A DNA stretch of 64,000 nucleotides. It comes from Tenacibaculum sp. 190130A14a (GTDB lineage Bacteria; Bacteroidota; Bacteroidia; Flavobacteriales; Flavobacteriaceae). The translations under genes and the position numbers were made by a program. The notes below the pieces were generated by a model. The model saw only the letters and a program-made list of their open reading frames with translations. It did no database searches and was not told the DNA's origin. This document shows positions 35,957 through 49,784 of the stretch, in pieces. Every line of letters begins with the position of its first letter. Positions within the stretch are counted from its first letter, which is position 1. The stretch lies in assembly GCF_964048965.1 (NCBI RefSeq), contig NZ_OZ040189.1:1612001-1676000 (forward strand). The letters run 5' to 3'.

Positions 35957-36517
35957 ATGCAAGAGTTTATAGATTATATTAAAGGATTTATTGATGTAAG
36001 TGAAGAAACAGTTGAACATATTTTAAATGTAGCTAATGAAGAAACTTTTGAAAAAGGTCAACAAATTCTTAACATAGGTAAGACGTGTAAATATTTATAT
36101 TTTCTGAAGGAAGGAAGTGTGCGCAGTTTTATATATCAAAAAGGAAAAGATATTACCCATTGGGTTTATGGAGATAAATCGTTATTTACTTCTTGGGGAA
36201 GTTATGTATTACAGCAACCTTCAAATGAATACTTAGAAGCAATTGATGAGTGTAAAGTAATTGCTATATCTTATGATAATTGGCAAAAGTTATATCAAGA
36301 ACATCCAGAATTGGAACGATTTGGTCGCTTAATGATGGAGCAGGAATTGGCTGTCATTGATGAGTTTTATAAAGGATATTATTTTTTGTCTGCCAAAGAG
36401 AAATATGAATTGTTAATTAGTGCTTATCCAAGAATAACACAAATTGCCAACTTAGGTCATATTGCTTCTATGTTGGGAATAAGTCAAGAAACATTAAGTC
36501 GAATTAGAGTAAAATAA
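35957..36517 (+). CDS. Crp/Fnr family transcriptional regulator
   Basis: A 186-aa one-component regulator. A cyclic-nucleotide-binding-like barrel spans about 20-110 (KYLYFLKEGSVRSFI, then VYGDKSLFTSWGSYV); a long dimer helix follows (115-140); the C-terminal HTH is at about 160-185 (HIASMLGISQETLSRIRVK). There are no N-terminal cysteines as in Fnr, so it should not hold a 4Fe-4S cluster of that kind. It sits beside the end of the leftward operon, and is the best candidate to bind the TTGAC-N4-GTCAA boxes in this block. Its own promoter lacks such a box. Confidence 0.92.
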   Translation: MQEFIDYIKGFIDVSEETVEHILNVANEETFEKGQQILNIGKTCKYLYFLKEGSVRSFIYQKGKDITHWVYGDKSLFTSWGSYVLQQPSNEYLEAIDECKVIAISYDNWQKLYQEHPELERFGRLMMEQELAVIDEFYKGYYFLSAKEKYELLISAYPRITQIANLGHIASMLGISQETLSRIRVK

Positions 36518-36547
36518 AAAAGGGCCTTTCCTCAAAGAAAAAGCCCT
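36515..36547 (-). terminator. Terminator of the leftward envelope operon
   Basis: AGGGC (36521-36525) pairs with GCCCT (36543-36547), TTT with AAA inside; on the minus strand the stem is followed by TTTTTTATTTT. It overlaps the end of the Crp/Fnr gene. Confidence 0.6.
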
Positions 36548-36608
36548 AGCGTGAAAAGAGTGGGGGTTATTACCCTTTACAAATTAACACATGAAAAGAA
36601 GTTTGGAT

Positions 36609-37475
36609 TTAAAAAACCCTTACTACATTAAATCCAAAAGAAATATCTCCTTTGCCCCAATCTCCCTGCGCTTTAGTTAAAAAGGCACTGTCGTTACTTC
36701 CTCGAGCATTTGAAAATAATAATTGAAATACATGCCCGCCAGTTTCAATATCTATTCCTAAAGTTAGCGGGTTTTTATAAATGGAATTGCTATCTCTATT
36801 AAAATTATAGGCATAATCTAAATTTACACTCATTCGTTTACTTACTTTTAAACGACCTCCTATCCCCATTAAAAACTGATTGTGATTTCTAGATTTTGTA
36901 GCATTTAAATCTTGTAAGTTTTGACGTACAAAAGAAGGAGCTACTTCTAATGATAAGTTTTTAGATACTCTACGAGAGGCTAAAACTTGAAAAGTATAAC
37001 TCATACGATCACCAAACTTTAAATCAGGGTAATTTGCTTTTTTTAATTCTGAATTAATGTCTGCACTTACATACCCTACAAGATTAAGAGGGAATTTATT
37101 TGATTGTTTTGTGATCGCTATTTTGGCAGTTCCAGAATACGTTTTCTCAAAACTATCTCTACTTAGTCCTAATTGAACACCATCCCAGAAACTATAAACC
37201 AATTGAATTTTAGTGTTGGCTTGGTCCAATCCAAAAAACTCATCAATACCATCTTTTAACGAACCAAAACGGTGAGCAACAATAAGATATAAATCTCCTT
37301 TGTCCGCTATTTTAGTTGATTGTAAGTTTCCTATTTGCATTGCTTTAAATGCGGGTAAGTCGAATAACTTAGTGTTTTTGGTCTCCTTATCAAGTTCATT
37401 TAATAAATCATCTTGAGCATTTACACTCAACGACAAAAAAAGAACGATTAAGAATAAATTTATTTTAGTATACAT
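36609..37475 (-). CDS. DUF5777 family beta-barrel protein
   Basis: A 288-aa outer-membrane-type protein. After a signal peptide (cut after VNAQ) it has FKAMQIGNLQSTKIADKGDL and YLIVAHRFGSLKDGIDEFFG, which I recognise as DUF5777, then amphipathic strands to a terminal VRVF. The function of the family is not established. It is the last gene of a six-gene operon and overlaps the OB-fold gene by 16 bp. Members are often found with cytochromes and YceI proteins, as here. Confidence 0.85.
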   Translation of the reverse strand: MYTKINLFLIVLFLSLSVNAQDDLLNELDKETKNTKLFDLPAFKAMQIGNLQSTKIADKGDLYLIVAHRFGSLKDGIDEFFGLDQANTKIQLVYSFWDGVQLGLSRDSFEKTYSGTAKIAITKQSNKFPLNLVGYVSADINSELKKANYPDLKFGDRMSYTFQVLASRRVSKNLSLEVAPSFVRQNLQDLNATKSRNHNQFLMGIGGRLKVSKRMSVNLDYAYNFNRDSNSIYKNPLTLGIDIETGGHVFQLLFSNARGSNDSAFLTKAQGDWGKGDISFGFNVVRVF

Positions 37476-37843
37476 TGATTTAGTTTTAATTCTTCCAATA
37501 AATCATCATATCCAATGACATGACCCTTTATTGTAATGTTTTGATTTAAGTTTAAAGTTGTTATTAAAGTTGGTGTTTTAAATTGACAGAATATTTGATT
37601 GTTTAAGGTAATTCCCTCACTATCTAATCCTGTAATTTTACCAGTTAGCTCTACTACTTTTGAATTCCATTCGTTAAAATTCGAACTAGCCTTTTCTAAG
37701 AAATCTTCCGAGCTTCCCTTATAACTACTATTTAGTTCTTCAATAGTTTTATGAGGCTTATATACATAGGTATATGCTGTAAATGCTGCTAGCATAATGA
37801 AAATACCTATTACAAAAAGTTTATTTTTTTTCAACCAATTCAT
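37460..37843 (-). CDS. Membrane-anchored OB-fold protein (tRNA_anti-like)
   Basis: A 127-aa protein with one N-terminal TM helix (8-26, LFVIGIFIMLAAFTAYTYV) and a small OB-fold domain at about 55-127 (VVELTGKITGLDSEGITLNN, ITIKGHVIGYDDLLEELKLN). Its fold resembles tRNA_anti-like domain proteins of Bacteroidota, whose role is unknown; nucleic acid binding is unlikely outside the cytoplasm. It overlaps its neighbours by 16 and 23 bp. Confidence 0.75.
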   Translation of the reverse strand: MNWLKKNKLFVIGIFIMLAAFTAYTYVYKPHKTIEELNSSYKGSSEDFLEKASSNFNEWNSKVVELTGKITGLDSEGITLNNQIFCQFKTPTLITTLNLNQNITIKGHVIGYDDLLEELKLNQCILK

Positions 37844-38363
37844 AGTGTATGGTAATATTTATTTGTTCTGCAATTTTCTTACGGACAATACTTGGTATTT
37901 TAATATCGAAATCCTGTGGTTTCACTGAAAAACTAGCCTGTAGTTCTATTGTATTGCCTTGGAGATTAACTTTAGCAATGGTATTTACTTCTTTCTTTTT
38001 TCCTCTTATAGTAAGTATTCCATTTAGAGGGAATTCTTTTTGAGACTTCATTTTTTCTATAGAAAGGGCTGCCAATTTTCCTCTAAAAGTGGCCTTCGGA
38101 TGTGTATCAGAATCCATATAATTTTCATTAAAATGTTCTTGCATCAAGGCAACTTTAAATTGAAAGGCGTTTATAAATAATTGAGCTGCAATATCTCCAG
38201 TATCTACTTTTAATATAGAAGTAGAACTATGGTTTGTTGCTTCAACAGGTTCAAAGGCCTCTACGGATGCTTTGAAATGAGTTGTGCCAGTTCTTGTAAA
38301 GTATTTTTGTGCGGCAATTGATTGTGAAATCAAAACTATGACTAGTATTATTAATTTTCTCAT
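37821..38363 (-). CDS. YceI family periplasmic lipid-binding protein
   Basis: A 180-aa secreted protein with a signal peptide (MRKLIILVIVLISQSIAAQ). The YceI beta-barrel features are FKASVEAFEPVEATNHS, QEHFNENYMDSDTHPKATF and LTIRGKKKEVN. YceI proteins form a lipocalin-like barrel that binds polyisoprenoid or other lipids. In this operon it sits between a cytochrome and an OB-fold protein, so it might carry a quinone- or isoprenoid-like substrate; that is inference. Confidence 0.9.
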   Translation of the reverse strand: MRKLIILVIVLISQSIAAQKYFTRTGTTHFKASVEAFEPVEATNHSSTSILKVDTGDIAAQLFINAFQFKVALMQEHFNENYMDSDTHPKATFRGKLAALSIEKMKSQKEFPLNGILTIRGKKKEVNTIAKVNLQGNTIELQASFSVKPQDFDIKIPSIVRKKIAEQINITIHYELVEKK

Positions 38364-38378
38364 TATAATTTTTTAGGG

Positions 38379-38714
38379 TTAATCAATATATCCGTCGGTC
38401 TTCCATTTATCAAATAAAGCTCTTCTATCTGCAGTTAGAAGCCCATTTTGCGGCATAGGATTGGCAGCATCATTTATACGAGCTATTAGATTTCCATTTT
38501 GAGCTGAATTTTTGACTTGCTGATATGTTTCTAATATCAAACCATTAGCTGGGTTTACGGAACTGTGACAGGTTAAACAATTATTAAAAATTATAGGCTG
38601 GATGTCTTGCTTATAGGTTATAGTTCTGTTTACAGGAGCTCCTGCTAATGGTATTTCAGCAGTCGTACAACCTACGCCTAGTATAATAGTTGCTAAATAA
38701 AATATTCTTTTCAT
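38379..38714 (-). CDS. Mono-heme cytochrome c lipoprotein
   Basis: A 111-aa lipoprotein: the lipobox ends at Cys16 (TIILGVGC). One heme motif CLTCH (Cys46, Cys49, His50) is followed by ANPMPQNG, where Met87 is the likely axial ligand. The closing LFDKWKTDGYID is typical of small cytochromes c. It could pass electrons in the periplasm. I chose ATG 38714 (MKRIFYLAT) rather than an ATG at 38738, which would overlap the previous gene. Confidence 0.88.
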   Translation of the reverse strand: MKRIFYLATIILGVGCTTAEIPLAGAPVNRTITYKQDIQPIIFNNCLTCHSSVNPANGLILETYQQVKNSAQNGNLIARINDAANPMPQNGLLTADRRALFDKWKTDGYID

Positions 38715-38718
38715 TCTT

Positions 38719-39870
38719 TTAATTTTGAACATCAACATTTGTTACATTTTCTATTTTGTTTTCTAATGGAGCTATGGTTACCTTTTTACTTATACTTAAA
38801 ATATCACCTTCTCCTGGAGCGCCATCTCCATTCTTATCGGCAACAACAGTTAAATAATAGTCTCCCGGATGTAAATAGGTGTATAAGAAAGAATTTTCTT
38901 TATTCTCCAGTACTGGAAAATGTAAAAGAGTATCATAAGCACTTGTGTTAGAGGTAAGGAAACCGCTATTATCAGTTAATGGATCTCGTGACAAGTAAAC
39001 GAACAGGTTGGTATCTGTTATTTCACTATTTCTTGTAATATTTGCGGTTAATGTTCCTAATCTTGGGTGATCTGTAATAATGTAAGGATCACCGGATTGC
39101 GGAGCTAATTCATATACATCATTATTAGTTTGTGAGGCTAGGAATGTAGCCGATTTAGCCGGTTGTCCCGCTTGTTCAGTGTATAAATGATCTGGATTAA
39201 ATCCATTAGCAAAATCTAAACCTTCATCAATGGTGTTTTCAGGAAACCCAGTTGCGTTTTGAGCAGCTTGTGCTAATTCTATATGCATCTTTTTTCCTTT
39301 GAAGGTCATGTGTCTAGAAGGTACACGATTCCCTAAATTACTGGTATATGAATTAAAGAAAAGCTCATCATCTTTAAATCGAAGTTCCATGTACATAATT
39401 CCAGTTCCGCCAACGGCATCTACAAGTCTGTAATATTTTCCTTCATCATTTCTGTCTTCAACTTTATCCATAACAAAATAACTTGTACGATAAATACCAT
39501 TTAATAGACCTCCATTACGAGCCATTATCGTTCTTTTTCCTTTGTAATTTGTGACAAAGAATGAGGTAAATAAGTTTCCTAATGATCCTCCTTCGTGTAT
39601 TCCATGTATGTGAGATTTTGAAATAGCTCTATAATCCCAAGCAAACCAAGGGTATTCATCGGCAATTACTTTATTAGTTCCTACCCAATGCCCTTGCATT
39701 TTTTCAAGAAAATCAAATCCATCAATGGTAATATCTATTGGTTTCACTTCTGTATCAGGGGGTGTTGGAGGTGTAGGGTTGGTTCCTCCGGTGATATCTC
39801 TTACGTTGTCTTCACAACCTATTAAAAAAAGAACAAAAAATGTTCCTAAAAGCAAATGTCTTTTTTTCAT
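38719..39870 (-). CDS. Uncharacterised lipoprotein (383 aa)
   Basis: A lipoprotein (lipobox LIGC, Cys19) with a Pro/Thr linker (GGTNPTPPTPPDTEVKP). The main domain reads LEKMQGHWVGTNKVIADEYP and WFAWDYRAISKSHIHGIHEG, then beta-rich segments to near 370, including KNGDGAPGEGD. The fold looks like a secreted beta-barrel plus Ig-like end. I know no function. It is the second gene of the leftward operon, 14 bp behind the first. Confidence 0.8.
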   Translation of the reverse strand: MKKRHLLLGTFFVLFLIGCEDNVRDITGGTNPTPPTPPDTEVKPIDITIDGFDFLEKMQGHWVGTNKVIADEYPWFAWDYRAISKSHIHGIHEGGSLGNLFTSFFVTNYKGKRTIMARNGGLLNGIYRTSYFVMDKVEDRNDEGKYYRLVDAVGGTGIMYMELRFKDDELFFNSYTSNLGNRVPSRHMTFKGKKMHIELAQAAQNATGFPENTIDEGLDFANGFNPDHLYTEQAGQPAKSATFLASQTNNDVYELAPQSGDPYIITDHPRLGTLTANITRNSEITDTNLFVYLSRDPLTDNSGFLTSNTSAYDTLLHFPVLENKENSFLYTYLHPGDYYLTVVADKNGDGAPGEGDILSISKKVTIAPLENKIENVTNVDVQN

Positions 39871-39883
39871 AATTTAGTTTCTG

Positions 39884-40264
39884 TTATTGTTTTCTAGTCC
39901 AAATTTCTATTGAGGGTTTATTTCGTATATGAGTGGTAACCTCTAACGTATCTTTATGTTTTACTTTAATTTGATAATTGCTAGAAGTAGTTTGTGTAGC
40001 TCCAGATACAGCATCTATAAAAAGGCGGTCTTTATACTGTAAGTTTTTGATGAAAATATCTTTATCAGTGCCTGTTTCTCGAAGTATAGTAGTTCCATCG
40101 TTATAGTAAAGAAGTTTACCTACTATATTTTTTCGAACCTTTTCAAACTTATAAGTAGCTTCATAAAATTTACTATTGGTTTTCCAGATTCCAATAATCC
40201 TTTGATCAAAGGATTTGGAGCAACCTAGAAAAAGTATTACGGTTATTAATAAAAAACGTTTCAT
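39884..40264 (-). CDS. Small lipoprotein, lipocalin-like (126 aa)
   Basis: A lipoprotein with lipobox LFLGC (Cys15). The mature part begins RIIGIWKTNSKFYEATYKFE and ends SIEIWTRKQ. The layout GxWK ... EIWxR also appears in the 182-aa protein at 43449 on the rightward operon (GKWK ... TEVWKREN), suggesting a common fold. It is the first gene of the leftward operon and follows Fnr-type box 1. Function unknown. Confidence 0.78.
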   Translation of the reverse strand: MKRFLLITVILFLGCSKSFDQRIIGIWKTNSKFYEATYKFEKVRKNIVGKLLYYNDGTTILRETGTDKDIFIKNLQYKDRLFIDAVSGATQTTSSNYQIKVKHKDTLEVTTHIRNKPSIEIWTRKQ

Positions 40265-40287
40265 GACTTACTTGTTTAAAGCTGAGA

Positions 40288-40295
40288 CAAAAATG
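40288..40295 (-). promoter_or_regulatory. Predicted -7 element of the leftward operon
   Basis: On the minus strand CATTTTTG, seven of eight positions of the window's TAnnTTTG type. The start expected near 40281 would put box 1 at about -43, a class II activator position. Confidence 0.45.
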
Positions 40296-40317
40296 TGAAG
40301 GATGTTAGAAAGTTTTT

Positions 40318-40331
40318 TTGACCTATGTCAA
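40318..40331. promoter_or_regulatory. Crp/Fnr-type box 1
   Basis: TTGACCTATGTCAA: palindromic arms TTGAC/GTCAA with 4-bp core. It and box 2 share TTTTTTTGACCTATGTCAA exactly. It serves the leftward promoter. Confidence 0.8.
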
Positions 40332-40352
40332 AATCATGTTTTAGTGTTTTTT

Positions 40353-40366
40353 TTGACCTATGTCAA
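40353..40366. promoter_or_regulatory. Crp/Fnr-type box 2
   Basis: TTGACCTATGTCAA, identical to box 1 and 35 bp from it. It lies about 43 bp before the start predicted from the -7 element at 40389. Confidence 0.8.
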
Positions 40367-40388
40367 TTTGCATTTATGAATGCAATAG

Positions 40389-40396
40389 TAGTTTTG
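40389..40396 (+). promoter_or_regulatory. Predicted -7 element of the rightward operon
   Basis: TAGTTTTG fits TAnnTTTG fully. Start expected near 40402, ten bases before the first gene's ATG at 40413. Confidence 0.55.
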
Positions 40397-40412
40397 GAGA
40401 AAACTTTTTAAG

Positions 40413-40706
40413 ATGAAAAAATTAATGTTACGTTGGAATATTGATACACCAAAAGATTTGATAATTATATTCTTTGTGTTTTCAATAACGGGGTCTTCTT
40501 CAGTATTAATTGGTAGACCTATTTTGAAGTTTTTAGGAATAACTTTAGAGCATATACATCCTATTATTTACTACCCATTATTTATTATTTCAAGCTTTAT
40601 ATTTTATCAAATATTTTTGGTGATATATGGATGGGTTTTTGGGCAATTCAGCTTTTTTTGGAACATGGAAAAGAAGATGTTAAAGAGGTTTGGAATAACT
40701 ATTTAA
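40413..40706 (+). CDS. Small membrane protein (97 aa), first gene of the rightward operon
   Basis: A protein with two long hydrophobic helices (about 14-38 and 52-78), a Gly-Ser loop (SITGSSSVLIGRPILKFLG) and a basic end (KKMLKRFGI). The opening MLRWNIDTPKDLIIIFFVFS is distinctive; it may be a DUF6787-like domain, which I cannot confirm. It is the first gene behind box 2. Function unknown. Confidence 0.75.
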   Translation: MKKLMLRWNIDTPKDLIIIFFVFSITGSSSVLIGRPILKFLGITLEHIHPIIYYPLFIISSFIFYQIFLVIYGWVFGQFSFFWNMEKKMLKRFGITI

Positions 40707-40728
40707 TATTTCTCTCTATATTTAAGAT

Positions 40729-40989
40729 ATGAAGAGTACAACAAAATGGAGAACTATAATTGCATTAATCTTAATGTACATTGCGATATTTATGAATTGG
40801 GAATGGGCATGGGGAATCCTTTTTTTGTTTTGGGTTATTCCTGATTTATTTTCAGGGGTTACCTATTTTGTTGAGCCCATTTTCAGAAAAGAGAATACTA
40901 TTTTATATTGGGTAATTGTAATTTCCTGGTTATTAATGGCATTATATTCTTTATCAACTTTATTTATAGATATAAATCAATTTTATTAG
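40729..40989 (+). CDS. Small membrane protein, paralog of the 80-aa protein (86 aa)
   Basis: Two or three TM helices. It aligns by eye with the 80-aa protein at 41841: KWRTIIALILMYIAIFMNWE with KWKTIVALVLLVLAVIFEWD, then a Trp-rich turn and a matching LYWVIVISWLLMALYSL with LYWTMISIWTFLALFSI. The two genes flank the ABC-TM gene, which begins 5 bp after this one ends. The pair may assemble with that protein. Confidence 0.78.
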   Translation: MKSTTKWRTIIALILMYIAIFMNWEWAWGILFLFWVIPDLFSGVTYFVEPIFRKENTILYWVIVISWLLMALYSLSTLFIDINQFY

Positions 40990-40994
40990 TAATA

Positions 40995-41840
40995 ATGAAA
41001 GACTTTTCTATTATTTCAATATTTAAAAAATACAAATGGAAAATATCTCTTACTTTTCTATTGTTGGTATTAGAAAATATTGCCAAAGTGTTACAGCCTT
41101 TGATATTGGGAATAGCCATTAATGATTTAATTAATAAGAAAAATGACGGGCTATGGTTATTTTGTATTTTATATGGAATTGGTTTTGTAATTGGAGCCAT
41201 TAGAAGATATTATGATACGAGAGCGTATACCTCAATTTATACAAATGTGGCTACAGAAATTGCAGAAAAGCAGAATGAAAAACAAATTGAAGTTTCGGCT
41301 ATTGCAGCAAGAAGTGCCTTGGTTAAAGAATTAGTAGATTTTTTTGAATATGATGTTACGCAAGCATTTACATCAGCTATTAGTGTAATAGGAGCATTGG
41401 TAATGTTGGCTTTGTTTAATTGGTGGATTTTTGGAGGGTGCTTGTTGGCAATTATCATTATTCTTTTGATTTACACTTTTAGTTCTGAACGAATTTATAA
41501 GTATAACATTGGATTGAATGATGAACTAGAACATCGAATTAACGTCTTAGAAAAACGAGAACATACAGGGATTTTTAATCACTTTAAAAATATAGCCAAC
41601 TGGTTGGTAAAGATGTCAGATTTAGAAACCATTAATTTCTCAATTATTGAGGTAGTATTATTTGCTTTGGCAATTTTTGCACTTTATATCTCTGCAAGTG
41701 CTGTTAATGCTACCGCGGGAAGTATATTTTCTGTGTTAACGTATGTGTTGGAATTTTCAGGAGGTGTGTTTATGCTTCCTATTATATTTCAGCAAATTAT
41801 TAGATTACAAGAAATTAGTGCTAGATTAAAAACAATATAA
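40995..41840 (+). CDS. ABC transporter six-transmembrane domain protein without ATPase
   Basis: A 281-aa protein with the fold of an ABC exporter membrane half: about six helices (VLENIAKVLQPLILGIAIND, ILYGIGFVIGAIRRYY, and later ISVIGALVMLALFNWW). No nucleotide-binding domain follows: the protein ends at RLQEISARLKTI, and the next frames encode small membrane proteins. I chose ATG 40995 (MKDFSIISIFKKYK), 5 bp behind the previous gene. It could pair with an ATPase elsewhere or have lost transport altogether. I recall such ATPase-free ABC-TM proteins being annotated in other Flavobacteriaceae. Confidence 0.85.
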   Translation: MKDFSIISIFKKYKWKISLTFLLLVLENIAKVLQPLILGIAINDLINKKNDGLWLFCILYGIGFVIGAIRRYYDTRAYTSIYTNVATEIAEKQNEKQIEVSAIAARSALVKELVDFFEYDVTQAFTSAISVIGALVMLALFNWWIFGGCLLAIIIILLIYTFSSERIYKYNIGLNDELEHRINVLEKREHTGIFNHFKNIANWLVKMSDLETINFSIIEVVLFALAIFALYISASAVNATAGSIFSVLTYVLEFSGGVFMLPIIFQQIIRLQEISARLKTI

Positions 41841-42083
41841 ATGAAAAAATGGAAAACAATTGTGGCCTTGGTATTATTAGTACTAGCTGTAATCTTTGAA
41901 TGGGATTGGTTTTGGGCATTTTTTATCTTGATGGGATTATTGAATGTTTTAAAGAGTAAAACAATTCATTTTGTAGAGGAAGTGTCTCTTGAAGAAACCC
42001 CAAGGTTGTATTGGACAATGATTTCGATTTGGACGTTTTTGGCGTTGTTTTCTATTTTAAATTATTTAAATATTTTGACTTAG
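41841..42083 (+). CDS. Small membrane protein, paralog of the 86-aa protein (80 aa)
   Basis: Its ATG follows the stop of the ABC-TM gene with no gap, so translation is probably coupled. It has two TM segments and a Trp-rich motif EWDWFWAFF, like NWEWAWG in the 86-aa protein. Its stop codon lies within Fnr-type box 3. Function unknown. Confidence 0.78.
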   Translation: MKKWKTIVALVLLVLAVIFEWDWFWAFFILMGLLNVLKSKTIHFVEEVSLEETPRLYWTMISIWTFLALFSILNYLNILT

Positions 42084-42088
42084 GTCAA
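42075..42088. promoter_or_regulatory. Crp/Fnr-type box 3
   Basis: TTGACTTAGGTCAA keeps both TTGAC/GTCAA arms. It overlaps the stop codon of the 80-aa gene and would serve the 74-aa gene at 42140. A -7-like GAACTTTG lies at 42111-42118. Confidence 0.65.
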
Positions 42089-42139
42089 AGAGTAAATAGG
42101 CTATTGTACAGAACTTTGCAGTAAATAAAATATACAAAA

Positions 42140-42364
42140 ATGAAACTAATTTTAACCTTAGCACTCTCGGTTCTTGCCTATTTTGGAATGGTTTATTACG
42201 GAGTAAGTTCACTTGTTATTTGGATTGTTTTGATAATCCTATGGACTGTTATAGACTATTTTACCTATGATAAACCATTTTCTTGGACAGATTATATTAT
42301 TTTAATAGTAGTACTATCATTAGTAGAAATGGGTTCTTGGTATAATTATTTTGGAGTTTTATAA
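42140..42364 (+). CDS. Small membrane protein (74 aa)
   Basis: Nearly all hydrophobic, with two or three TM helices (LILTLALSVLAYFGMVYYG, then IWIVLIILWTVIDYF and ILIVVLSLVEMGSWY). It lies between Fnr-type boxes 3 and 4, so it is a short unit or part of the rightward operon. No known domain. Confidence 0.72.
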   Translation: MKLILTLALSVLAYFGMVYYGVSSLVIWIVLIILWTVIDYFTYDKPFSWTDYIILIVVLSLVEMGSWYNYFGVL

Positions 42365-42370
42365 TCGATT

Positions 42371-42384
42371 TTGACCTGTGTCAA
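42371..42384. promoter_or_regulatory. Crp/Fnr-type box 4
   Basis: TTGACCTGTGTCAA. A -7-like GATATTTG lies at 42407-42414, so the start near 42421 puts the box at about -43, as with boxes 1 and 2. It serves the hydroxylase gene. Confidence 0.75.
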
Positions 42385-42435
42385 AAGTAAAATAAACTAC
42401 TCTAAGGATATTTGTATTAATTAAAAATTTAAAAA

Positions 42436-43422
42436 ATGAGCAAAACAAGATTAATAATATATAGCCTAGTAATTATTGGAACCATTGTTGGTATACCACA
42501 TTATGTGGCCGACAATTTTAATATAGCTGAATATACGAATGAAACTGTAGATCGTTTCTTTTATATTTTTAACGATTTAAGTGTGCTGTATATCATCGTA
42601 CCATTTTTTGTACTTGAACTTGTTAGATATCTTGTCACAAAAAGGTTAAACAAAGATTTAGCATTAGATTCAGTAGCGAATGTATTAACAGTAGGGTTTT
42701 TTACTGTTATCAATTATATTTTAGGATTTTTATTCGCAACAAAACTATACGTTTGGGCGTGGGAATTTCGTTTTTTCGATGAATTGCCATTGACGTGGGT
42801 AACCATTACATCTTGTATTCTTTTAGCTGATTTTTTATATTATTGGGAACATCGACTAATGCACGAATTAGCAGCAGGATGGGTAACGCATACCGTTCAC
42901 CACAGTTCACCACATTTTAATATGTCAGTAGCGTATAGATTTGGACCTTTAGATGGTTTTTTTCCATTATTTTTTTCGGTACCAGCCGTTATGTTAGGAT
43001 TTAATCCGTTTTTAATGTTAGCAGCAGAATTGTTTGTGCAAACGTTTCAAGCAGTGTTACATACTGAAATTATAGGTAAATTGTTTAAACCAATTGAGTA
43101 TATTTTCAATACACCATCTCACCATCGTGTACATCACGGTTCCAACAGACAGTATTGGGATAAAAACTATGCTGGAATTTTAATTATTTGGGATAGAATG
43201 CTAGGAACTTTTGAGCCTGAAGAGGAAAAGGTAGTGTATGGTATTTCAGAACCTTTGAATAGTGTGAATCCAATTAAAGTTTTTTTTCATGGTATTACAC
43301 GTTTTTATGATAAGTTAAAACATACCAAAGGATTTGGAAATAAGCTACTGTCTTTTGTAAAAAGACCCCATTGGATGCCTAAAGGACAAACTTATCCACC
43401 ACAACAAGTATCTGATAAATAA
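42436..43422 (+). CDS. Sterol desaturase/fatty acid hydroxylase family membrane protein
   Basis: A 328-aa membrane di-iron oxygenase with the histidine motifs EHRLMHE, THTVHHSSPHFN and SHHRVHHGSN, and TM helices at about 8-25, 50-70, 85-110 and 125-145. It is the counterpart of the 16237 gene but is under Fnr-type box 4, so it should be induced with the Rieske oxygenase. Such enzymes hydroxylate lipid acyl chains or carotenoids with O2. Substrate unknown. Confidence 0.92.
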   Translation: MSKTRLIIYSLVIIGTIVGIPHYVADNFNIAEYTNETVDRFFYIFNDLSVLYIIVPFFVLELVRYLVTKRLNKDLALDSVANVLTVGFFTVINYILGFLFATKLYVWAWEFRFFDELPLTWVTITSCILLADFLYYWEHRLMHELAAGWVTHTVHHSSPHFNMSVAYRFGPLDGFFPLFFSVPAVMLGFNPFLMLAAELFVQTFQAVLHTEIIGKLFKPIEYIFNTPSHHRVHHGSNRQYWDKNYAGILIIWDRMLGTFEPEEEKVVYGISEPLNSVNPIKVFFHGITRFYDKLKHTKGFGNKLLSFVKRPHWMPKGQTYPPQQVSDK

Positions 43423-43448
43423 TGTTTAACTTAAAGGAGTTTTAGAAA

Positions 43449-43997
43449 ATGAAGATAGCAAACAGCATATTTAAAGTTTTAGGATATATAATTATTTTAG
43501 GCGGATTAGCAACACTCGTAGTTTATGCATTATATCCATCACCAGATGAATGGGAGTATTACACACAAGAAGGGTCTATTGAAACGCAGTATGTTACTAA
43601 AGACGTAACAGAGGAAAAGACAAAGAAAATAATAACAACTACAAAAAAGAATGTAAAAAATAATAATGTAGTTTCATTGGTAGGGAAATGGAAAGTGGTA
43701 TATAAAAACTTAAATGGATCTGTGATTTACAATATTAAAAAAGAAGGGAAAACATACAATGCTTTTACCTACGAAGTTCAAGATGAAAATGGTTATGGGG
43801 AGAAAGTTCCATCAGTGAAAACCTTAATCGTTAAATATTTCAATGGTAAAAAAGGAAAGGGAATTTATAAAGTAGAGTTTGAAGGAAAAAAATATGATAT
43901 TCCGTGTAAAATTAACTTAAAAGACAATAGTACATTTTTATTAAGTTATGATTATTATGGGTACAAGGACACCGAAGTTTGGAAAAGAGAAAACTAA
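43449..43997 (+). CDS. Uncharacterised membrane-anchored protein (182 aa)
   Basis: One N-terminal TM helix (8-30, KVLGYIIILGGLATLVVYAL), a charged linker with TKKIITTTKKNV, then a beta-rich domain starting LVGKWKVVYKNLNGSVIYN and ending TEVWKREN. The same GKWK/EVW layout appears in the lipoprotein at 39884. Encoded 26 bp behind the hydroxylase and 16 bp before the Rieske gene. Function unknown. Confidence 0.75.
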   Translation: MKIANSIFKVLGYIIILGGLATLVVYALYPSPDEWEYYTQEGSIETQYVTKDVTEEKTKKIITTTKKNVKNNNVVSLVGKWKVVYKNLNGSVIYNIKKEGKTYNAFTYEVQDENGYGEKVPSVKTLIVKYFNGKKGKGIYKVEFEGKKYDIPCKINLKDNSTFLLSYDYYGYKDTEVWKREN

Positions 43998-44013
43998 AAT
44001 GTTGTAAGAGATT

Positions 44014-45246
44014 ATGAGCTCAATATTAAATAATGATAATTTAGCGTCTTCTAAAATGATGCACGCACTTCCAGTTGAAGCATATACTTCACAGGAGTGG
44101 TTTGATTTAGAAATGAAGCATCTTTTCTCTACTACTTGGCAATATGCTGGTTTAGTAGAAGATGTAGCAAATCCTGGAGATTATATTTCTGTGCAAGCGG
44201 GATTGAATAATATATTTATTGTAAAGGGAAGAGATCATCGTTTAAGAGCTTTTCATAATATGTGTCGTCATAGAGGAACACAATTGTTAAGAGCAGTGGG
44301 GAAAAATCAAAAAGCCATTACTTGTCCTTATCACGATTGGACCTATGATTTAGAGGGGAAACTGGTTAGTATTCCTAAAAAAGAACAAGAGTTTCCTGAT
44401 TTAAATGGTAAAGAATTGCATGAGTGTGACTTAAATCTACACGAAGCTTCAGTAGATATTTTTAAAGGAATGCTTTTTGTGCATCCGGAAAAGAATGCTT
44501 CAAGTATTATGGAATTTTTTGGTGAAGTGGAACCTTATTTAGGCCCACACGTAGTTGAAGAATTGGTAGAATGGAGTGAAACAGATGGAGCACCTTTTTA
44601 TGCCAAAGAAATTCAATCTAACTGGAAAATTGTCGTAGAAAATTATATTGATCATTATCATTTAGCACATTTACACGAAGGAACCTTAAATATGTACGAT
44701 CATTCAAAAGCAGAGTTTGGGTGGAAAGGTCCGCACTATTGGTTTTATGAACCTTTGGTTGATGATTATTTACAAGATGTAGATAATGCTGCGCAATTTC
44801 CACTAATTGAAAGCGTGCCTAGAGAAAAAATAGGAGCCTATGTACCTTGGTTATTTCCTAATATTGGTATTACCGAAGGAGAGGCTCAATGGAATACTTT
44901 TCATGCGATTCCATTAGCACCAGATAGGACATTGGTAGTAATTAGGTCTAAAGTTGAAAATAAAAGTGAATGGGAGTTTACCAAACAATATGCAAAGTCT
45001 TCTATGAGTAAAGTTTGGCAGCATTATGGTAATAAAGGAAAGTATGAGGGAGAAAAAGATGATCCAATGGCTTCTGGAGATTTCATGGCTGAAGATATTT
45101 ATGCGTGTGAACAACAACAAAAATCGTTAAGCTCGCCGTATTTTAGTGTTGGTGCCAGAGCAGTTAGAGGAGAATATGCTATAATGCGATTTCAGGAAGA
45201 AGTAAAAAAATGGATGGAAGCTCATGGGGCTTTTGATAAAAAATAA
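44014..45246 (+). CDS. Rieske non-heme iron oxygenase, alpha subunit
   Basis: A 410-aa aromatic-ring-hydroxylating-dioxygenase type protein. The Rieske 2Fe-2S ligands are Cys84, His86, Cys104 and His107 (NMCRHRGTQ, TCPYHDWT). The catalytic iron ligands are His216 and His221, bridged by Asp213 (ENYIDHYHLAHLHEG), with a later Asp in FMAEDIYACEQQ as the third ligand. It takes electrons from the reductase two genes downstream. The nearest named families I can think of are choline, carnitine and glycine-betaine monooxygenases; the substrate is not clear, and an envelope lipid or a quaternary amine are both open. Confidence 0.92.
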   Translation: MSSILNNDNLASSKMMHALPVEAYTSQEWFDLEMKHLFSTTWQYAGLVEDVANPGDYISVQAGLNNIFIVKGRDHRLRAFHNMCRHRGTQLLRAVGKNQKAITCPYHDWTYDLEGKLVSIPKKEQEFPDLNGKELHECDLNLHEASVDIFKGMLFVHPEKNASSIMEFFGEVEPYLGPHVVEELVEWSETDGAPFYAKEIQSNWKIVVENYIDHYHLAHLHEGTLNMYDHSKAEFGWKGPHYWFYEPLVDDYLQDVDNAAQFPLIESVPREKIGAYVPWLFPNIGITEGEAQWNTFHAIPLAPDRTLVVIRSKVENKSEWEFTKQYAKSSMSKVWQHYGNKGKYEGEKDDPMASGDFMAEDIYACEQQQKSLSSPYFSVGARAVRGEYAIMRFQEEVKKWMEAHGAFDKK

Positions 45247-45256
45247 AAGAAATAAG

Positions 45257-45868
45257 ATGAGAAAAATTGTATTAGGGTTAATGATTGTTTTAGCAGCCTG
45301 TAATACTGCACAGAATAAAAAGGACGCTTCACAACCTTCACAAGATAATTTGAATATAGAGAACAAAGAAGTAATTGTATTAAAAGTAAATGCTCAAGAA
45401 GTAGATTGTTACGGAGCTCATGGTAAACAAAAATGTTTACAGATTAAAGAGTTAGGGGTAGATAGTACTTGGAAAAATCAATATGAAGGAATAGAGGGGT
45501 TTAATTATAGTTCAGGGTTTGTATACAATTTACAGGTGGAAAAGATAGCATTAAAAGAAGCACCTCAAGATGCATCCTCAATTTTTTACAAACTCATAGA
45601 AGTGTTGAAAAAAGAAAAACCAATTACAGATGAAGAATTGGCAAAGTTTCCAATTTTAGAAGTTACTGAAATAAGAAATGGAAAAGATGGCTACACGGCT
45701 ATTTTAAAAGACGATAAAGAAGGATTATATACCTGCACGATTAGTATTCCAAATCTAGAAGATAATTATGTGCAATTAAAAGTAGGAGATAAAGTGAGAA
45801 TAGCAGGAGAATATGCCGAAAGTTATCCTGTACAAATCTTTGCAAAACGAATTTTAAAAGAAGAATAA
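45257..45868 (+). CDS. DUF4377-containing lipoprotein
   Basis: A 203-aa lipoprotein with lipobox LAAC (Cys17) from the ATG at 45257. Near residues 50-100 it has VDCYGAHGKQKCLQIKE and IEGFNYSSGFVYNLQV, the DUF4377 pattern with two conserved cysteines, followed by a second small beta domain with YTCTISIPNLEDNYVQLK. An upstream ATG at 45224 lies inside the Rieske gene. It sits between the Rieske oxygenase and its reductase. Function unknown. Confidence 0.82.
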   Translation: MRKIVLGLMIVLAACNTAQNKKDASQPSQDNLNIENKEVIVLKVNAQEVDCYGAHGKQKCLQIKELGVDSTWKNQYEGIEGFNYSSGFVYNLQVEKIALKEAPQDASSIFYKLIEVLKKEKPITDEELAKFPILEVTEIRNGKDGYTAILKDDKEGLYTCTISIPNLEDNYVQLKVGDKVRIAGEYAESYPVQIFAKRILKEE

Positions 45869-45869
45869 G

Positions 45870-46937
45870 ATGTCTAAGTTTCATAAATTAAAAGTACTGG
45901 AAGTAAAGAAAGAAACGAATGATTCCGTTTCGGTATCCTTTGATGTTCCTAATGAACTATATGAAACGTTTAATTTCAAAGCAGGACAATATGTAACTTT
46001 AAAGTTTATATTAAACGGAGAAGAAGCAAGACGCTCTTATTCCTTATGTAGCAGTCCAGTATTGGAAGAACCTTTAAAAGTAGGAGTAAAGCGCGTAAAA
46101 AAAGGATTGGTATCAAATCATATTAATGATAATTTAAATTCAGGAGATATAGTTGAAGTGATGGCTCCTGATGGACGTTTTTTTGCGGATGTTCAAAAAG
46201 AAAACTATAAGACCTACTATTTATTTGCTGCCGGAAGTGGAATTACTCCAATACTTTCTATTTTAAGAACAGTATTACTAACAGAAGAGAATAGCTACGT
46301 AAACATGATTTATGGGAATAGAAACCAAGAGACCATTATGTTTAAAGAAGAACTAGAAGCTTTGAAAAAAGAATTTCCTGAAAGGTTTGCCTTGGTGCAT
46401 ACTTTAAGTAAGCCAAAAAGCAGTTTTTGGTCGTCTAAAAATAAAATGGAGTACCGAAAAGGAAGAGTAGATAAAGAAGCTATAGAGTGGTTTGTTAATG
46501 AATTTCCACCTTATGCACAAAATACCGAATACTTTATTTGTGGGCCAGGTAGTATGATTGAAAATACGCAAAAAATATTACAAAGCATAGATGTTCCTGA
46601 TTCAAGAATTTTTATTGAAAGTTTTGGAGGGGGAACTATTGAAGAAACAATAGAAGCTATAGAGAATGCGCATTTAACTGCTAATTTAGATGGAGAAATA
46701 ATTAAAGTAAGTATTTCGAAAGGGAAGACCATTTTAAGAACATTATTAGATAACAAATATGACCCACCTTATTCATGTGAAGGAGGCGTATGTTCTAGTT
46801 GTATGTGTAAATTGAATAAAGGAGAAGTTTTTATGAAAAAGAACCTTGCTTTATCTGAAGAAGATGTAAAAGAAGGATATATTTTAAGTTGTCAAAGTGT
46901 TCCGTTGACACCAGATATAGAAATTGCATTTGAATAA
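45870..46937 (+). CDS. Flavin/2Fe-2S reductase of the Rieske oxygenase
   Basis: A 355-aa ferredoxin-NADPH reductase type protein. The FAD domain has RRSYSLCSSP; the NAD(P) domain GSGITPILSILRTVL and YFICGPGSMIE; the C-terminal plant-type ferredoxin has Cys303, Cys308, Cys311 and Cys341 (SCEGGVCSSCMCKL, LSCQ). This order (FAD-NAD-2Fe-2S) is that of PaaE-like reductases that supply electrons to oxygenases. It is the last gene of the operon, 1 bp behind the lipoprotein gene. Confidence 0.93.
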   Translation: MSKFHKLKVLEVKKETNDSVSVSFDVPNELYETFNFKAGQYVTLKFILNGEEARRSYSLCSSPVLEEPLKVGVKRVKKGLVSNHINDNLNSGDIVEVMAPDGRFFADVQKENYKTYYLFAAGSGITPILSILRTVLLTEENSYVNMIYGNRNQETIMFKEELEALKKEFPERFALVHTLSKPKSSFWSSKNKMEYRKGRVDKEAIEWFVNEFPPYAQNTEYFICGPGSMIENTQKILQSIDVPDSRIFIESFGGGTIEETIEAIENAHLTANLDGEIIKVSISKGKTILRTLLDNKYDPPYSCEGGVCSSCMCKLNKGEVFMKKNLALSEEDVKEGYILSCQSVPLTPDIEIAFE

Positions 46938-47012: not shown

Positions 47013-49784
47013 TTGAAATTAGTTTTAAAACTCTCATTTTTCTATTGCTTTCTTAGCTGTTTTCATTTCTTTGCTCAAGAATTACCTCCTGTAACTAATT
47101 TTTTTCCTAAAGAATATAAAGGAGAAAAACAGAATTGGGCCATTACTCAAGATAGCGAAAAGACAATATATATAGCCAATAATAAAGGATTGCTAACTTA
47201 TAACGGAGCATCTTGGAAACTATATAATTCTCCTAATGAAACAATAATAAGATCGGTAAAAGTTATCAAGGACAAAGTCTTTACCGGATGTTATATGGAA
47301 TTTGGATATTGGAAAAAAAATGAGTTGGATGAGTTAGAATATACTTCATTATCAGAAACTTTAAAAGATACCTTGATAGAAGACGAACAGTTTTGGAATA
47401 TATTATCTTTTGAAGACAAGGTTGTTTTCCAATCTCTTAACAGAATTTATATATATGACGTCTTAAGTAATGAGTTTAACATATTAGGTTCAAATGAATC
47501 GATAACTAAAACTTATCAAACTAAAAACACGATATACTTTCAAAAGACGAATCTAGGATTGTTTAAGATTGAAAAAGGGAAAGGAGTTTTAGTTTCAGGA
47601 AATATTGTTCTTAAAGAGAATAGAATAATTAATGTGTTTCAAAAGAACGAAGACCTTTTAATATTACTTGAAAATAAAGGGTTTTATTTACTTGCTAAAA
47701 ATGAATTGACAGAATGGAAAACATCTTTAAACTTTACCTTTAATAATGCAAATGTTTATAATGCCATTCAGCTTAAAAATGGGAATTTTGCATTAGGAAC
47801 TATATCAAACGGATTTATCCTTTTAGACTCACAAGGAGAACTCTTGTATCAATTAAATAGAAAAAAGGGATTGAATAACAATACGATACTCTCCCTATAT
47901 GAAGATGTAGATGAGGATATTTGGTTGGGATTAGATAATGGAATTAGCTTGGTTAATGAAGAATCTCCTTTTACAATATTTAATGATTTCATTGGAAACT
48001 TAGGGAGTATATATACATCTACCATTTTTAATGATCATTTGTATTTAGGAACAAATCAAGGTTTGTTTTTTAAAGATTTAAATGGATCAGATGATTTTAA
48101 ACTGGTCAGTGGCACTGAAGGACAAGTTTGGAGTTTAAGAGTAATTGATGAAGTTCTATTCTGTGGACATAATTTAGGAACTTTTACAATAAATGATGGT
48201 ATTGCTAATCAAGTTTCTAATATTGAAGGAACTTGGGATTTTAAAAAGATAAATGACTCGCTAGTATTACAAGGAAATTATGATGGGCTTTATGTATTGA
48301 AAAAAGATAATCAGTTATGGAGTTTGAGAAACAAAATAGAAGGGTTTAATATTTCTTCAAAACAATTTGAAATATTAAAAAATAGACAAGTATTTGTAAA
48401 TCATGAATATAAAGGGGTGTATGAACTTAACATAAATTCAGATTATACTTCAACGAATAAAATACAAAAAGATACGATTAACCTAGGAGTACATTCAAGT
48501 ATTGCTTCATATCAAAATAAACTCTATTTAGCTTATAAAAAAGGAATCTTTGGCTATGAAGAAGATACATCTTCCTTTATAAAAGATACCATTTTGAGTA
48601 AAGTTTATAAGGATGATTTCATTTCAGGTAAACTAGTGATACAAGACAATGAAATGTGGGCGTTTACAAAGTCTAGTTTAGTACAAGTAACACCAAGTAA
48701 ACTTTCTAATGGGATTGAAATTAGAAAAATTCCATTAGATAATATAAAGCGAAATAGTGTGGTTGGTTATGAGAATATTTTAAAAATAGAAAAAGACAAA
48801 TATTTATTATGTTCTTCTTCAGGGTATATAATTATTAACACATCTAAGGTTCCTAAAAAAGAATTTGATATAACTCTGAATAAAGTACTCTTAAAAGATA
48901 ATCAATTAGATATAAAGGTAAAAGGCATTTTTAAAAATCATGAGAATAATTTGACCTTTACTTATAATGTAGCAGAATTTGATAAATTCTTTTTACCTGA
49001 GTATCAATATCAGTTAAAAGGCTTGGAAAATAAATGGAGTCAATGGTCTACCAGTTTTTCAAAAACTTTTGAAAGTTTGCCGTATGGGAGTTATACTTTT
49101 TTGGTAAGAGGTAGAGTAGGAAACAAGATGTCTAAGAATGAGGCTAGTTACTCTTTTGAAATTAAGAAGCCTTGGTACGCGAGTAACTTAATGTTAGTAG
49201 TTTATACAATAACTTTTATCTTGTTTTCCGTAGCCATGCACGTGATGTATAGAAGGTATTATAAAAAACAACAAAGAAGAATTATTCAAGAAAATCAAAA
49301 GGAACTTAAAATAGCTCAAATAGAAAATGAAAAAGAAATCATACGAATTCGAAATGAAAAGTTAAGACAAGATTTCAAAGACAAGAGTAAAGAACTGGCT
49401 TCTTCTATTATGAGTGTTGTAAAGAAAAATGAACTATTAACAGCCATCAAAAATCAAATAGTTAAAGTAGATAACAAAAATTTAAAACCGGTTATCGATT
49501 TGATAGATCAAAGTTTAAAAGATAATGACGATTGGGAGTTTTTCCAAGAAGCATTTAATAATGCTGATAGTGAGTTTTTAAAACGTTTGAAAAGTTTACA
49601 TCCTAATTTATCTCCAAATGATTTAAAACTATGTGCCTATTTGCGTCTAAATTTATCTTCTAAAGAAATAGCTCCACTTTTTAATATATCGGTAAGAAGT
49701 GTAGAGATTAAACGTTACAGATTGCGTAAAAAAATGAATTTACAGCACGAAAATAACCTTGTTGACTATATTTTGAACCTTTAA
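47013..49784 (+). CDS. SusR-like sensor/transcriptional regulator (Y_Y_Y and LuxR-type HTH)
   Basis: A 923-aa membrane regulator with an apparent TTG start and a signal peptide (cut after FFAQ). Residues about 30-630 are beta-propeller repeats of the ligand-sensing kind (for example DEDIWLGLDNGISLV). A Y_Y_Y domain (about 640-720: YQLKGLENKWSQWS) leads to a TM helix (AMHVMYRRYY after LMLVVYTITFILFS), a coiled coil and a LuxR-type HTH (LSPNDLKLCAYLRLNLSSKE, then ISVRSVEIKRYRLRKKMNL). It is the likely glucan sensor that switches on the PUL, which follows immediately. There is no kinase domain, so it is a one-component regulator. Confidence 0.9.
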   Translation: MKLVLKLSFFYCFLSCFHFFAQELPPVTNFFPKEYKGEKQNWAITQDSEKTIYIANNKGLLTYNGASWKLYNSPNETIIRSVKVIKDKVFTGCYMEFGYWKKNELDELEYTSLSETLKDTLIEDEQFWNILSFEDKVVFQSLNRIYIYDVLSNEFNILGSNESITKTYQTKNTIYFQKTNLGLFKIEKGKGVLVSGNIVLKENRIINVFQKNEDLLILLENKGFYLLAKNELTEWKTSLNFTFNNANVYNAIQLKNGNFALGTISNGFILLDSQGELLYQLNRKKGLNNNTILSLYEDVDEDIWLGLDNGISLVNEESPFTIFNDFIGNLGSIYTSTIFNDHLYLGTNQGLFFKDLNGSDDFKLVSGTEGQVWSLRVIDEVLFCGHNLGTFTINDGIANQVSNIEGTWDFKKINDSLVLQGNYDGLYVLKKDNQLWSLRNKIEGFNISSKQFEILKNRQVFVNHEYKGVYELNINSDYTSTNKIQKDTINLGVHSSIASYQNKLYLAYKKGIFGYEEDTSSFIKDTILSKVYKDDFISGKLVIQDNEMWAFTKSSLVQVTPSKLSNGIEIRKIPLDNIKRNSVVGYENILKIEKDKYLLCSSSGYIIINTSKVPKKEFDITLNKVLLKDNQLDIKVKGIFKNHENNLTFTYNVAEFDKFFLPEYQYQLKGLENKWSQWSTSFSKTFESLPYGSYTFLVRGRVGNKMSKNEASYSFEIKKPWYASNLMLVVYTITFILFSVAMHVMYRRYYKKQQRRIIQENQKELKIAQIENEKEIIRIRNEKLRQDFKDKSKELASSIMSVVKKNELLTAIKNQIVKVDNKNLKPVIDLIDQSLKDNDDWEFFQEAFNNADSEFLKRLKSLHPNLSPNDLKLCAYLRLNLSSKEIAPLFNISVRSVEIKRYRLRKKMNLQHENNLVDYILNL

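Follow-up and report, generated by a model that had tools for sequence, protein, structure and literature searches.

The stretch analysed here (the window) is 64,000 nucleotides (nt) long and covers positions 1612001-1676000 of the 3.94-Mb one-contig genome of Tenacibaculum sp. 190130A14a. It contains a Crp/Fnr-family regulator gene beside two divergent gene sets that encode a Rieske oxygenase with its reductase, a diiron hydroxylase and a series of membrane and envelope proteins. In window coordinates, the features of this locus are the following:

35957..36517, + strand: Crp/Fnr-family regulator, 186 amino acids, cyclic-nucleotide-monophosphate-binding fold (PF00027, 44.5 bits) and degenerate Crp helix-turn-helix (HTH)
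36521..36547, - strand: terminator-like hairpin at the convergent DUF5777/crp junction, weak (8 such sites found vs 5.6 expected in shuffles)
36609..37475, - strand: DUF5777 outer-membrane beta-barrel (PF19089, 275 bits)
37460..37843, - strand: OB127, 127 amino acids, N-terminal hydrophobic stretch; "OB" label by eye, no Pfam family above cut-off; adjoins YceI/DUF5777 in other loci
37821..38363, - strand: YceI-family secreted protein (PF04264, 56 bits)
38379..38738, - strand: lipoprotein-like mono-haem c-type cytochrome, one CLTCH
38719..39870, - strand: lipo383, lipoprotein with predicted folds of a nitrobindin-like barrel (48-196) and an immunoglobulin/fibronectin-III-like domain (271-382)
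39884..40264, - strand: lipo126, lipoprotein with a predicted fatty-acid-binding-protein/lipocalin-like (calycin) fold
40318..40331, no strand: operator TTGACCTATGTCAA of the left operon; CATTTTTG at 22 nt
40353..40366, no strand: operator TTGACCTATGTCAA of the right operon; TAGTTTTG at 22 nt
40413..40706, + strand: DUF6787 small membrane protein (PF20584, 82.5 bits)
40729..40989, + strand: sm86, small integral membrane protein (hydrophobic stretches), conserved upstream of this Rieske oxygenase
40995..41840, + strand: ABC-transporter membrane domain without ATPase (PF13748, 169 bits; longer frame 40908-41840)
41841..42083, + strand: sm80, sm86 paralogue
42075..42088, no strand: internal operator TTGACTTAGGTCAA before sm74; GAACTTTG at 22 nt
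42140..42364, + strand: sm74, small membrane protein
42371..42384, no strand: internal operator TTGACCTGTGTCAA upstream of FAH; GATATTTG at 22 nt
42436..43422, + strand: FAH, membrane diiron hydroxylase, alkylglycerol-monooxygenase-like (PF04116, 93.8 bits)
43449..43997, + strand: m182, membrane-anchored protein of no family; directly adjoins the FAH gene also in L193, L228, L239 and L266 (L and G numbers are our handles for loci and genomes)
44014..45246, + strand: Rieske oxygenase, sole PF00355 match of this genome
45224..45868, + strand: lipo214, DUF4377 lipoprotein (PF14302, 71 bits)
45870..46937, + strand: PaaE/GbcB-type NAD(P)H reductase, flavin and 2Fe-2S domains

The left set has six genes (lipo126, lipo383, cytochrome, YceI, OB127, DUF5777; gaps of -23 to +15 nt) and the right set ten (DUF6787, sm86, ABC membrane protein, sm80, sm74, FAH, m182, Rieske, lipo214, PaaE-like; gaps of -23 to +71 nt), and both diverge from a shared 148-bp region at 40265-40412. 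The first-pass annotation had described two operons of at least six and ten genes beside a regulator gene. Its gene counts, the divergence and the adjacency stand, with two corrections: crp is convergent with the left operon, the terminator-like site at 36521-36547 lying between them, and the right-hand genes probably form at least three transcription units, because internal boxes precede sm74 (42075) and FAH (42371). All the genes that it named were found in their places, and no ABC ATPase appeared in Pfam scans of the cluster proteins, in line with its description of the ABC membrane protein as ATPase-free.

Two identical palindromes, TTGACCTATGTCAA, are found 35 bp apart in the 148-bp region, and two further boxes lie before sm74 and before FAH. 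All four have a.A..TTTG element exactly 22 nt away, with only TAGTTTTG fitting TAnnTTTG in full. Class II activators occupy position -41.5. The 22-nt spacing to the -7-like element places the palindrome near this position on 32 of 38 box sides (described below), the start sites themselves being predicted. According to PMC9723704, TAnnTTTG extends from -12 to -5 in Flavobacterium, and the box centre therefore falls at -41.5; we predict class II activation at the four window boxes. Allowing at most one mismatch to the box, the whole genome contains five sites, four of them in this cluster. The sole near-consensus box outside it (L202, G000:C1:1807462) lies between an AraC-like gene and hemA, both named by eye.

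The operator recurs in other genomes. We counted 38 TTGA-N6-TCAA sites in 20 related divergent regions (one locus counted twice, and several close relatives among them), whereas 300 base shuffles averaged 0.16 and never exceeded 2. In 19 regions, 32 of 38 box sides showed the.A..TTTG element at a distance of exactly 22 nt, a lone box being counted for both sides where a region has one only. A scan with TTGAYNTANRTCAA yielded 84 sites in ten genomes, versus 20 for the reversed control. All sites were inspected in four of the ten genomes, with genes assigned by tblastn and the remainder by eye. In four relatives in which the genes of the two sets and their regulator (hereafter, the module) are partly dispersed, 27 of 48 boxes adjoin module genes, two outer-membrane proteins of unclear status being left uncounted (G091, 8/13; G192, 8/12; G316, 5/10). 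Of the 13 sites in the fourth, G047, 7 are wholly inside unrelated coding frames and the other 6 all adjoin module genes or partners, namely the cytochrome-YceI-OB-DUF5777 cassette, an outer-membrane protein next to crp, a B12-radical SAM gene, lipo126-lipo383, a MauG-like gene and DUF1800-DUF1501. Among 32 dispersed sites picked for this test, 22 again showed.A..TTTG at 22 nt, and of the 31 composite sites in the seven genomes that have lipo383 at full length, 27 were at module genes or within clusters (partly by eye; two G439 sites left out). The same operator-promoter architecture was also seen ahead of genes unrelated to the module (L268, L270, L274, L275, L276, L278, L287, and L291). The picture is suggestive of a group of paralogous Crp regulons in Flavobacteriaceae.

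The HTH_Crp_2 match of the regulator is below the Pfam cut-off (E 0.024), and the stretch LG.IAS.LGI.QETLSR.R is at least 90% conserved in an alignment of 28 sequences. FNR needs four cysteines for its 4Fe-4S cluster. The alignment has one cysteine column, filled in 19 of the 28 sequences, and we rejected an oxygen-sensing FNR. Accordingly, of the earlier proposal of Crp/Fnr-type control in response to oxygen or redox state, the type of control agrees in silico with operators at a constant -41.5-like position, whereas an oxygen or redox signal is not supported, the FNR cysteine set being missing. The canonical cAMP phosphate-binding motif was not seen in the regulator either. However, a cyclase-like gene family, recognized by eye, occurs in four related loci and lies inside the right stretch of related clusters (L042:6988-8067). 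A cyclase-like gene, again by eye, also adjoins the crp of the minimal G117 module (L266:2200-2832), so cAMP may yet be involved in control.

A scan of species genomes gave 195 relatives, and our locus counts rest on the best 80, recruited with the peptide patterns TCPYHDW and ENYIDHY; the nearest named relatives are Tenacibaculum. The core is a trio of Rieske oxygenase, PaaE-type reductase and sm86-like small membrane protein. Among the 77 loci with enough sequence, 74 have PaaE at most 2.5 kb downstream of the Rieske gene. Of all 80 loci, 62 have an sm86-like protein at most 3.5 kb upstream: 26 of the 36 titled Bacteroidota and 36 of the 44 others, in those 36 always immediately upstream. 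The trio spans several phyla; the record titles name Bacteroidota, Alphaproteobacteria, cyanobacteria and others. At 14 loci of other Rieske oxygenases, where the flanks extended only ~1.5 kb, sm86 had no match. In five Ruegeria loci without an upstream sm86, an ABC membrane protein sits between Rieske and PaaE. The sm86 family has 523 database members, with no Pfam family among the 120 members listed, and its profile matched 3 of 296 Bacteroidota genomes: the present one, G512 (with such a Rieske gene beside it) and G439 (a shortened module). Outside Bacteroidota, clustering placed a TetR-type gene in 32 of 44 loci. Genes judged by eye to be DUF1501/DUF1800-like are found close to the trio, or to its Rieske gene, in three loci of Ruegeria and two of Saprospiraceae, and also close to one G047 box. 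The plasmid collection contained two Ruegeria records.

A regulator match is present in 25 of the 80 loci. Conservation of the gene order in other genomes had been set beforehand as a test of the first-pass annotation, and the order is indeed conserved; since the gene set recurs and the operator is conserved, the observation is more than chance. Rieske homologues of 75-85% identity occur in 3 of 58 relatives besides the genome itself, one of them among 35 of the same genus. Seven of 299 family genomes (own included) have the Rieske gene at E <= 1e-60, and 7 of 397 have full-length lipo383, so the module is patchy; in 57 other genomes, lipo383 matches were only partial, with at most 55 bits. 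Full-length lipo383 is present in six of the seven genomes with this Rieske gene or its 50% relative, the seventh, G135, being absent from the matches. In G316, the left operon and regulator stand beside a 49% Rieske gene, around which 18 kb showed no PaaE match. A second Rieske gene in G192 (L249:1275-2465), 51% identical, has its own box and an sm86-like neighbour (L037:3080-3349).

As for the flanks of the cluster, a large two-component-like regulator (Y_Y_Y, LuxR-type HTH; 47013-49784) just past it stands beside the cluster only in L023 among the 80 loci, and upstream acyl-CoA dehydrogenase and transglutaminase genes likewise keep their position only there. All three were dropped as module members. 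L024 has a TetR and acyl-CoA dehydrogenase pair ~4 kb past PaaE.

Residues of the Rieske enzyme were compared in 81 sequences, the window and the 80 loci. The CxH...CxxH Rieske ligands and the His-His-Asp iron triad are present in all 81. Judged by the distance from the iron ligands, the residue equivalent to CntA Tyr203 is a Tyr in 77 sequences, a Phe in 1 and an Asn in 3, the Tyr count being biased because the search pattern holds this Tyr. In PMC7948474, an aromatic residue here is tied to carnitine, choline and benzalkonium oxygenases (clade Va), and Asn marks another clade, Vb. The Rieske enzyme mostly carries the aromatic signature residue of one quaternary-ammonium oxygenase clade. No sequence has a Cys-X-X-Cys by the iron site (0/81; Leu at the second position in all), and the bridging residue is Asp in 81/81, not Glu as in CntA (E205). 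With a four-sequence Rieske profile, the top PDB match was CntA; the window sequence alone scored 113.6 and 106.5 bits with benzene and biphenyl dioxygenases versus 104.6 with CntA.

We examined FAH in 19 sequences, leaving out one short one (L048), for the residues of alkylglycerol monooxygenase (AGMO). All nine AGMO histidines are found in 19/19, eight of them spaced as in the human enzyme and the ninth lying one residue farther off. Of six other AGMO residues (Q162, D233, N235, Y236, W243, D244; PMC7911779), five have equivalents in 19/19, and that of Q162 is Phe in 19/19. The radical SAM protein is BchE/HpnJ-like and scores far under the cut-off (96.5 vs 481 bits). In related clusters, the place of the Rieske gene can be taken or shared by genes for a diiron hydroxylase or a B12-radical SAM enzyme. 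In G025, the regulator, the entire left operon, sm86 and FAH are present with no Rieske match; L158 has FAH without Rieske; and in L193 and L160, FAH and the B12-radical SAM, respectively, sit among the remaining module genes while the Rieske gene is elsewhere in the genome. A 3-kb read of G117 showed regulator, box, m182 and FAH. A single run in G047 comprises regulator, B12-radical SAM, sm86-like protein, ABC membrane protein, lipo126, lipo383, cytochrome and DUF5777, with the Rieske-PaaE pair located away from it, and G141 unites Rieske, FAH and B12-radical SAM in one cluster.

In predicted structures, both lipo383 and lipo126 contain calycin-type barrels. The lipo383 barrel has the nitrobindin beta-barrel fold, and its invariant H187, a candidate haem-ligand histidine, lies 8 residues before the aligned end, like H158 in the Arabidopsis chains. 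Foldseek with the whole lipo383 model ranked rhamnogalacturonan lyases (E 6.7e-5) above nitrobindins (5.3e-4); the lyase match falls on residues 270-381. No match to lipo126 reached E <= 0.001. We rejected DUF2141 as the identity of the C-terminal domain of lipo383 (profile comparison probability 2.2%; Pfam E 0.045 in one homologue). Fusions of lipo383 with the cytochrome occur in L022, L193 and L195. In L116 (G439:C15:11000-30000), the left operon is intact and the right side stops after DUF6787-sm80, abutting large genes that look RHS-like by eye; neither crp nor Rieske gave a match within the 19 kb examined, and L116 is possibly a remnant of the module. The same genome as the window has a second cytochrome-YceI-OB-DUF5777 cassette next to a lepA-like gene (G000:C1 ~646520-648680; L153:8521-10681). 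Related cytochrome-c-peroxidase/MauG-like genes follow the same operator or lie in the cluster in L237, L245, L253, L264, L034:5830-6898 and L044.

We give about even chances to a model in which the locus forms a regulon of its own, dedicated to a membrane-tethered oxygenase system with a hydrophobic or amphiphilic substrate. In this model, the local Crp/Fnr-type activator is predicted to bind the TTGAC-N4-GTCAA boxes near -41.5 and to turn on both gene sets. From family chemistry, the PaaE-type reductase would hand electrons from NAD(P)H on to the Rieske oxygenase, which sm86, judging by the conserved synteny, may bring to the inner membrane, and the ATPase-free ABC membrane protein and FAH may act on the same membrane-embedded substrate. 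The left set would provide a relay through periplasm and outer membrane (lipocalin-like lipoproteins, YceI, cytochrome c, DUF5777 barrel), moving hydrophobic substrate or product, perhaps electrons, through the envelope. The substrate class is most likely a lipid or other amphiphile; membrane-lipid or quinone chemistry, as first proposed, is plausible. Tentatively, and as a possibility short of a probability, we extend this model to an undescribed envelope oxidation system in which one regulated chassis (regulator, small membrane recruiter, ATPase-free ABC membrane protein, nitrobindin-like/cytochrome lipoproteins, lipid carriers) would accept three unrelated catalysts (Rieske, diiron hydroxylase, B12-radical SAM), singly or together; these would modify one membrane-borne substrate in different or equivalent ways, and the oxygenase trio would have spread across phyla.

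Several observations weigh against the dedicated-regulon model. Near the trio outside Bacteroidota, lipo383, cytochrome, DUF5777, YceI and crp are found in 0 of 44 loci; sm86 is not within 3.5 kb upstream in 18 of 80 loci; and L021 and L029 show just the Rieske-PaaE pair of this gene set. The cytochrome-YceI-OB-DUF5777 cassette also stands alone elsewhere, own genome included. Of 397 Flavobacteriaceae genomes, 90 contain the box with its -7-like element; the module is present in far fewer, and the box is therefore of a general type. G003, of the same genus, has no excess of TTGAYNTANRTCAA (8 sites vs 8 in the control), and in the own genome this looser pattern gives 9 sites (control, 4), just 3 of them in the cluster; at least 4 of the other 6 are within coding frames. 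An operator private to the module was rejected on the 90 genomes and on targets, some of which are unlike the module.

The aromatic residue at the CntA-203 position, the CntA match of the four-sequence profile, the AGMO residues of FAH and the algal or animal hosts from which the names of several relatives come would suit a system that takes up and oxidises exogenous quaternary-ammonium amphiphiles (lipids with choline or betaine headgroups, long-chain quaternary amines). The Rieske enzyme would then act on the headgroup and FAH on an alkyl or ether part, with DUF5777 and the lipocalins as importers. We consider this unlikely, given the missing Cys pair, the bridging Asp, the clade-Vb Asn in three sequences, the Tyr count biased by the recruiting patterns, and benzene/biphenyl dioxygenases that match the window sequence as well as or better than CntA; moreover, every family in the clustering other than the trio and the TetR-type gene is limited to at most 9 of the 44 non-Bacteroidota loci, and hence no recurring catabolic pathway is seen. 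Envelope detoxification, in which oxidised lipids or hydrophobic toxicants would be repaired or removed in a BcnA-LcoA-like manner and haem proteins (nitrobindin-like domain, cytochrome, MauG/peroxidase) would serve as redox partners, also seems improbable to us: O2-dependent oxygenases would be odd repair tools, LcoA is a membrane cytochrome b561 whereas the cytochrome here is a c-type lipoprotein, and the patchy presence (7/299 genomes) suggests a niche trait over a housekeeping defence. In its favour are the frequent TetR-type gene, the MauG-like genes after a box in L237, L245, L253 and L264 (by eye; mutual identity, 55-58%) and the pairing of YceI with a cytochrome; BcnA/LcoA guards against lipid peroxyl radicals, according to PMC9113575.

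The same paper reports YceI proteins that hold ubiquinone-8 or polyprenyls, and PMC8981238 a YceI-like domain and c-type cytochrome domains in one protein. Together with the BchE/HpnJ-like radical SAM enzyme, these would fit modification of an isoprenoid quinone or other endogenous polyprenyl compound in the membrane, which we rate as very unlikely. No quinone-synthesis gene was noticed near the trio, though no search was aimed at such genes. Organisms with the trio differ in their quinone types, which also counts against a quinone substrate. Finally, a generic cassette, an oxygenase pair and a hydroxylase could share a regulator without a common process, as the cassette without oxygenases and the lone Rieske-PaaE pair in L021 might suggest; the operator retained by dispersed units, the lipo383-cytochrome fusions and full-length lipo383 in six of seven Rieske genomes make such a loose neighbourhood hardly probable.

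Rieske oxygenases are usually regarded as soluble, with soluble substrates; a conserved integral-membrane partner across phyla would place them on membrane lipids. With the operator as a sequence tag, the regulon becomes easier to define in Flavobacteriaceae genomes that have the module, and the module links families of unknown function (sm86, lipo383, DUF5777, DUF6787, m182, DUF1800/DUF1501). The enzymes belong to known superfamilies, and there is a fair chance that the system as a whole is new: like the first-pass annotation, which knew of no described system with this content, we found none in the PMC papers searched, nor a description there of the gene combination, the membrane partner or the regulon. 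Two papers retrieved for DUF1800 with DUF1501 appear unrelated.

We compared the module with known systems. Boxes of the FNR/NNR family are TTGA-type palindromes. The module shares such a box at a -41.5-like position with these Crp regulators and differs from FNR in lacking the conserved cysteine set for the 4Fe-4S cluster. As in BcnA-LcoA, a secreted YceI lipocalin and a cytochrome are found in one operon; here, however, the cytochrome is a c-type lipoprotein (mono-CXXCH) accompanied by an outer-membrane barrel, extra lipocalin-like proteins and oxygenases, and Pfam scans of the cluster contained no b561 domain and hence no LcoA-type partner. FAH has the nine histidines and the D233, N235, Y236, W243 and D244 equivalents in common with AGMO and OlsE-type enzymes, but differs from AGMO by Phe for Q162 and one histidine shifted by one residue, and from OlsE by its score (59.5 vs a cut-off of 475 bits). 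With the Group V oxygenases (CntA-CntB carnitine monooxygenase, choline monooxygenase, OxyBAC), the Rieske enzyme shares the Rieske and His-His-Asp ligands, a single reductase with flavin and 2Fe-2S domains and, in 78 of 81 sequences, the aromatic residue at the CntA-203 position. It differs from them in a score far under the curated cut-off (GbcA, 135.8 vs 670 bits), in the bridging Asp without a Cys pair, and in its conserved small membrane partner.

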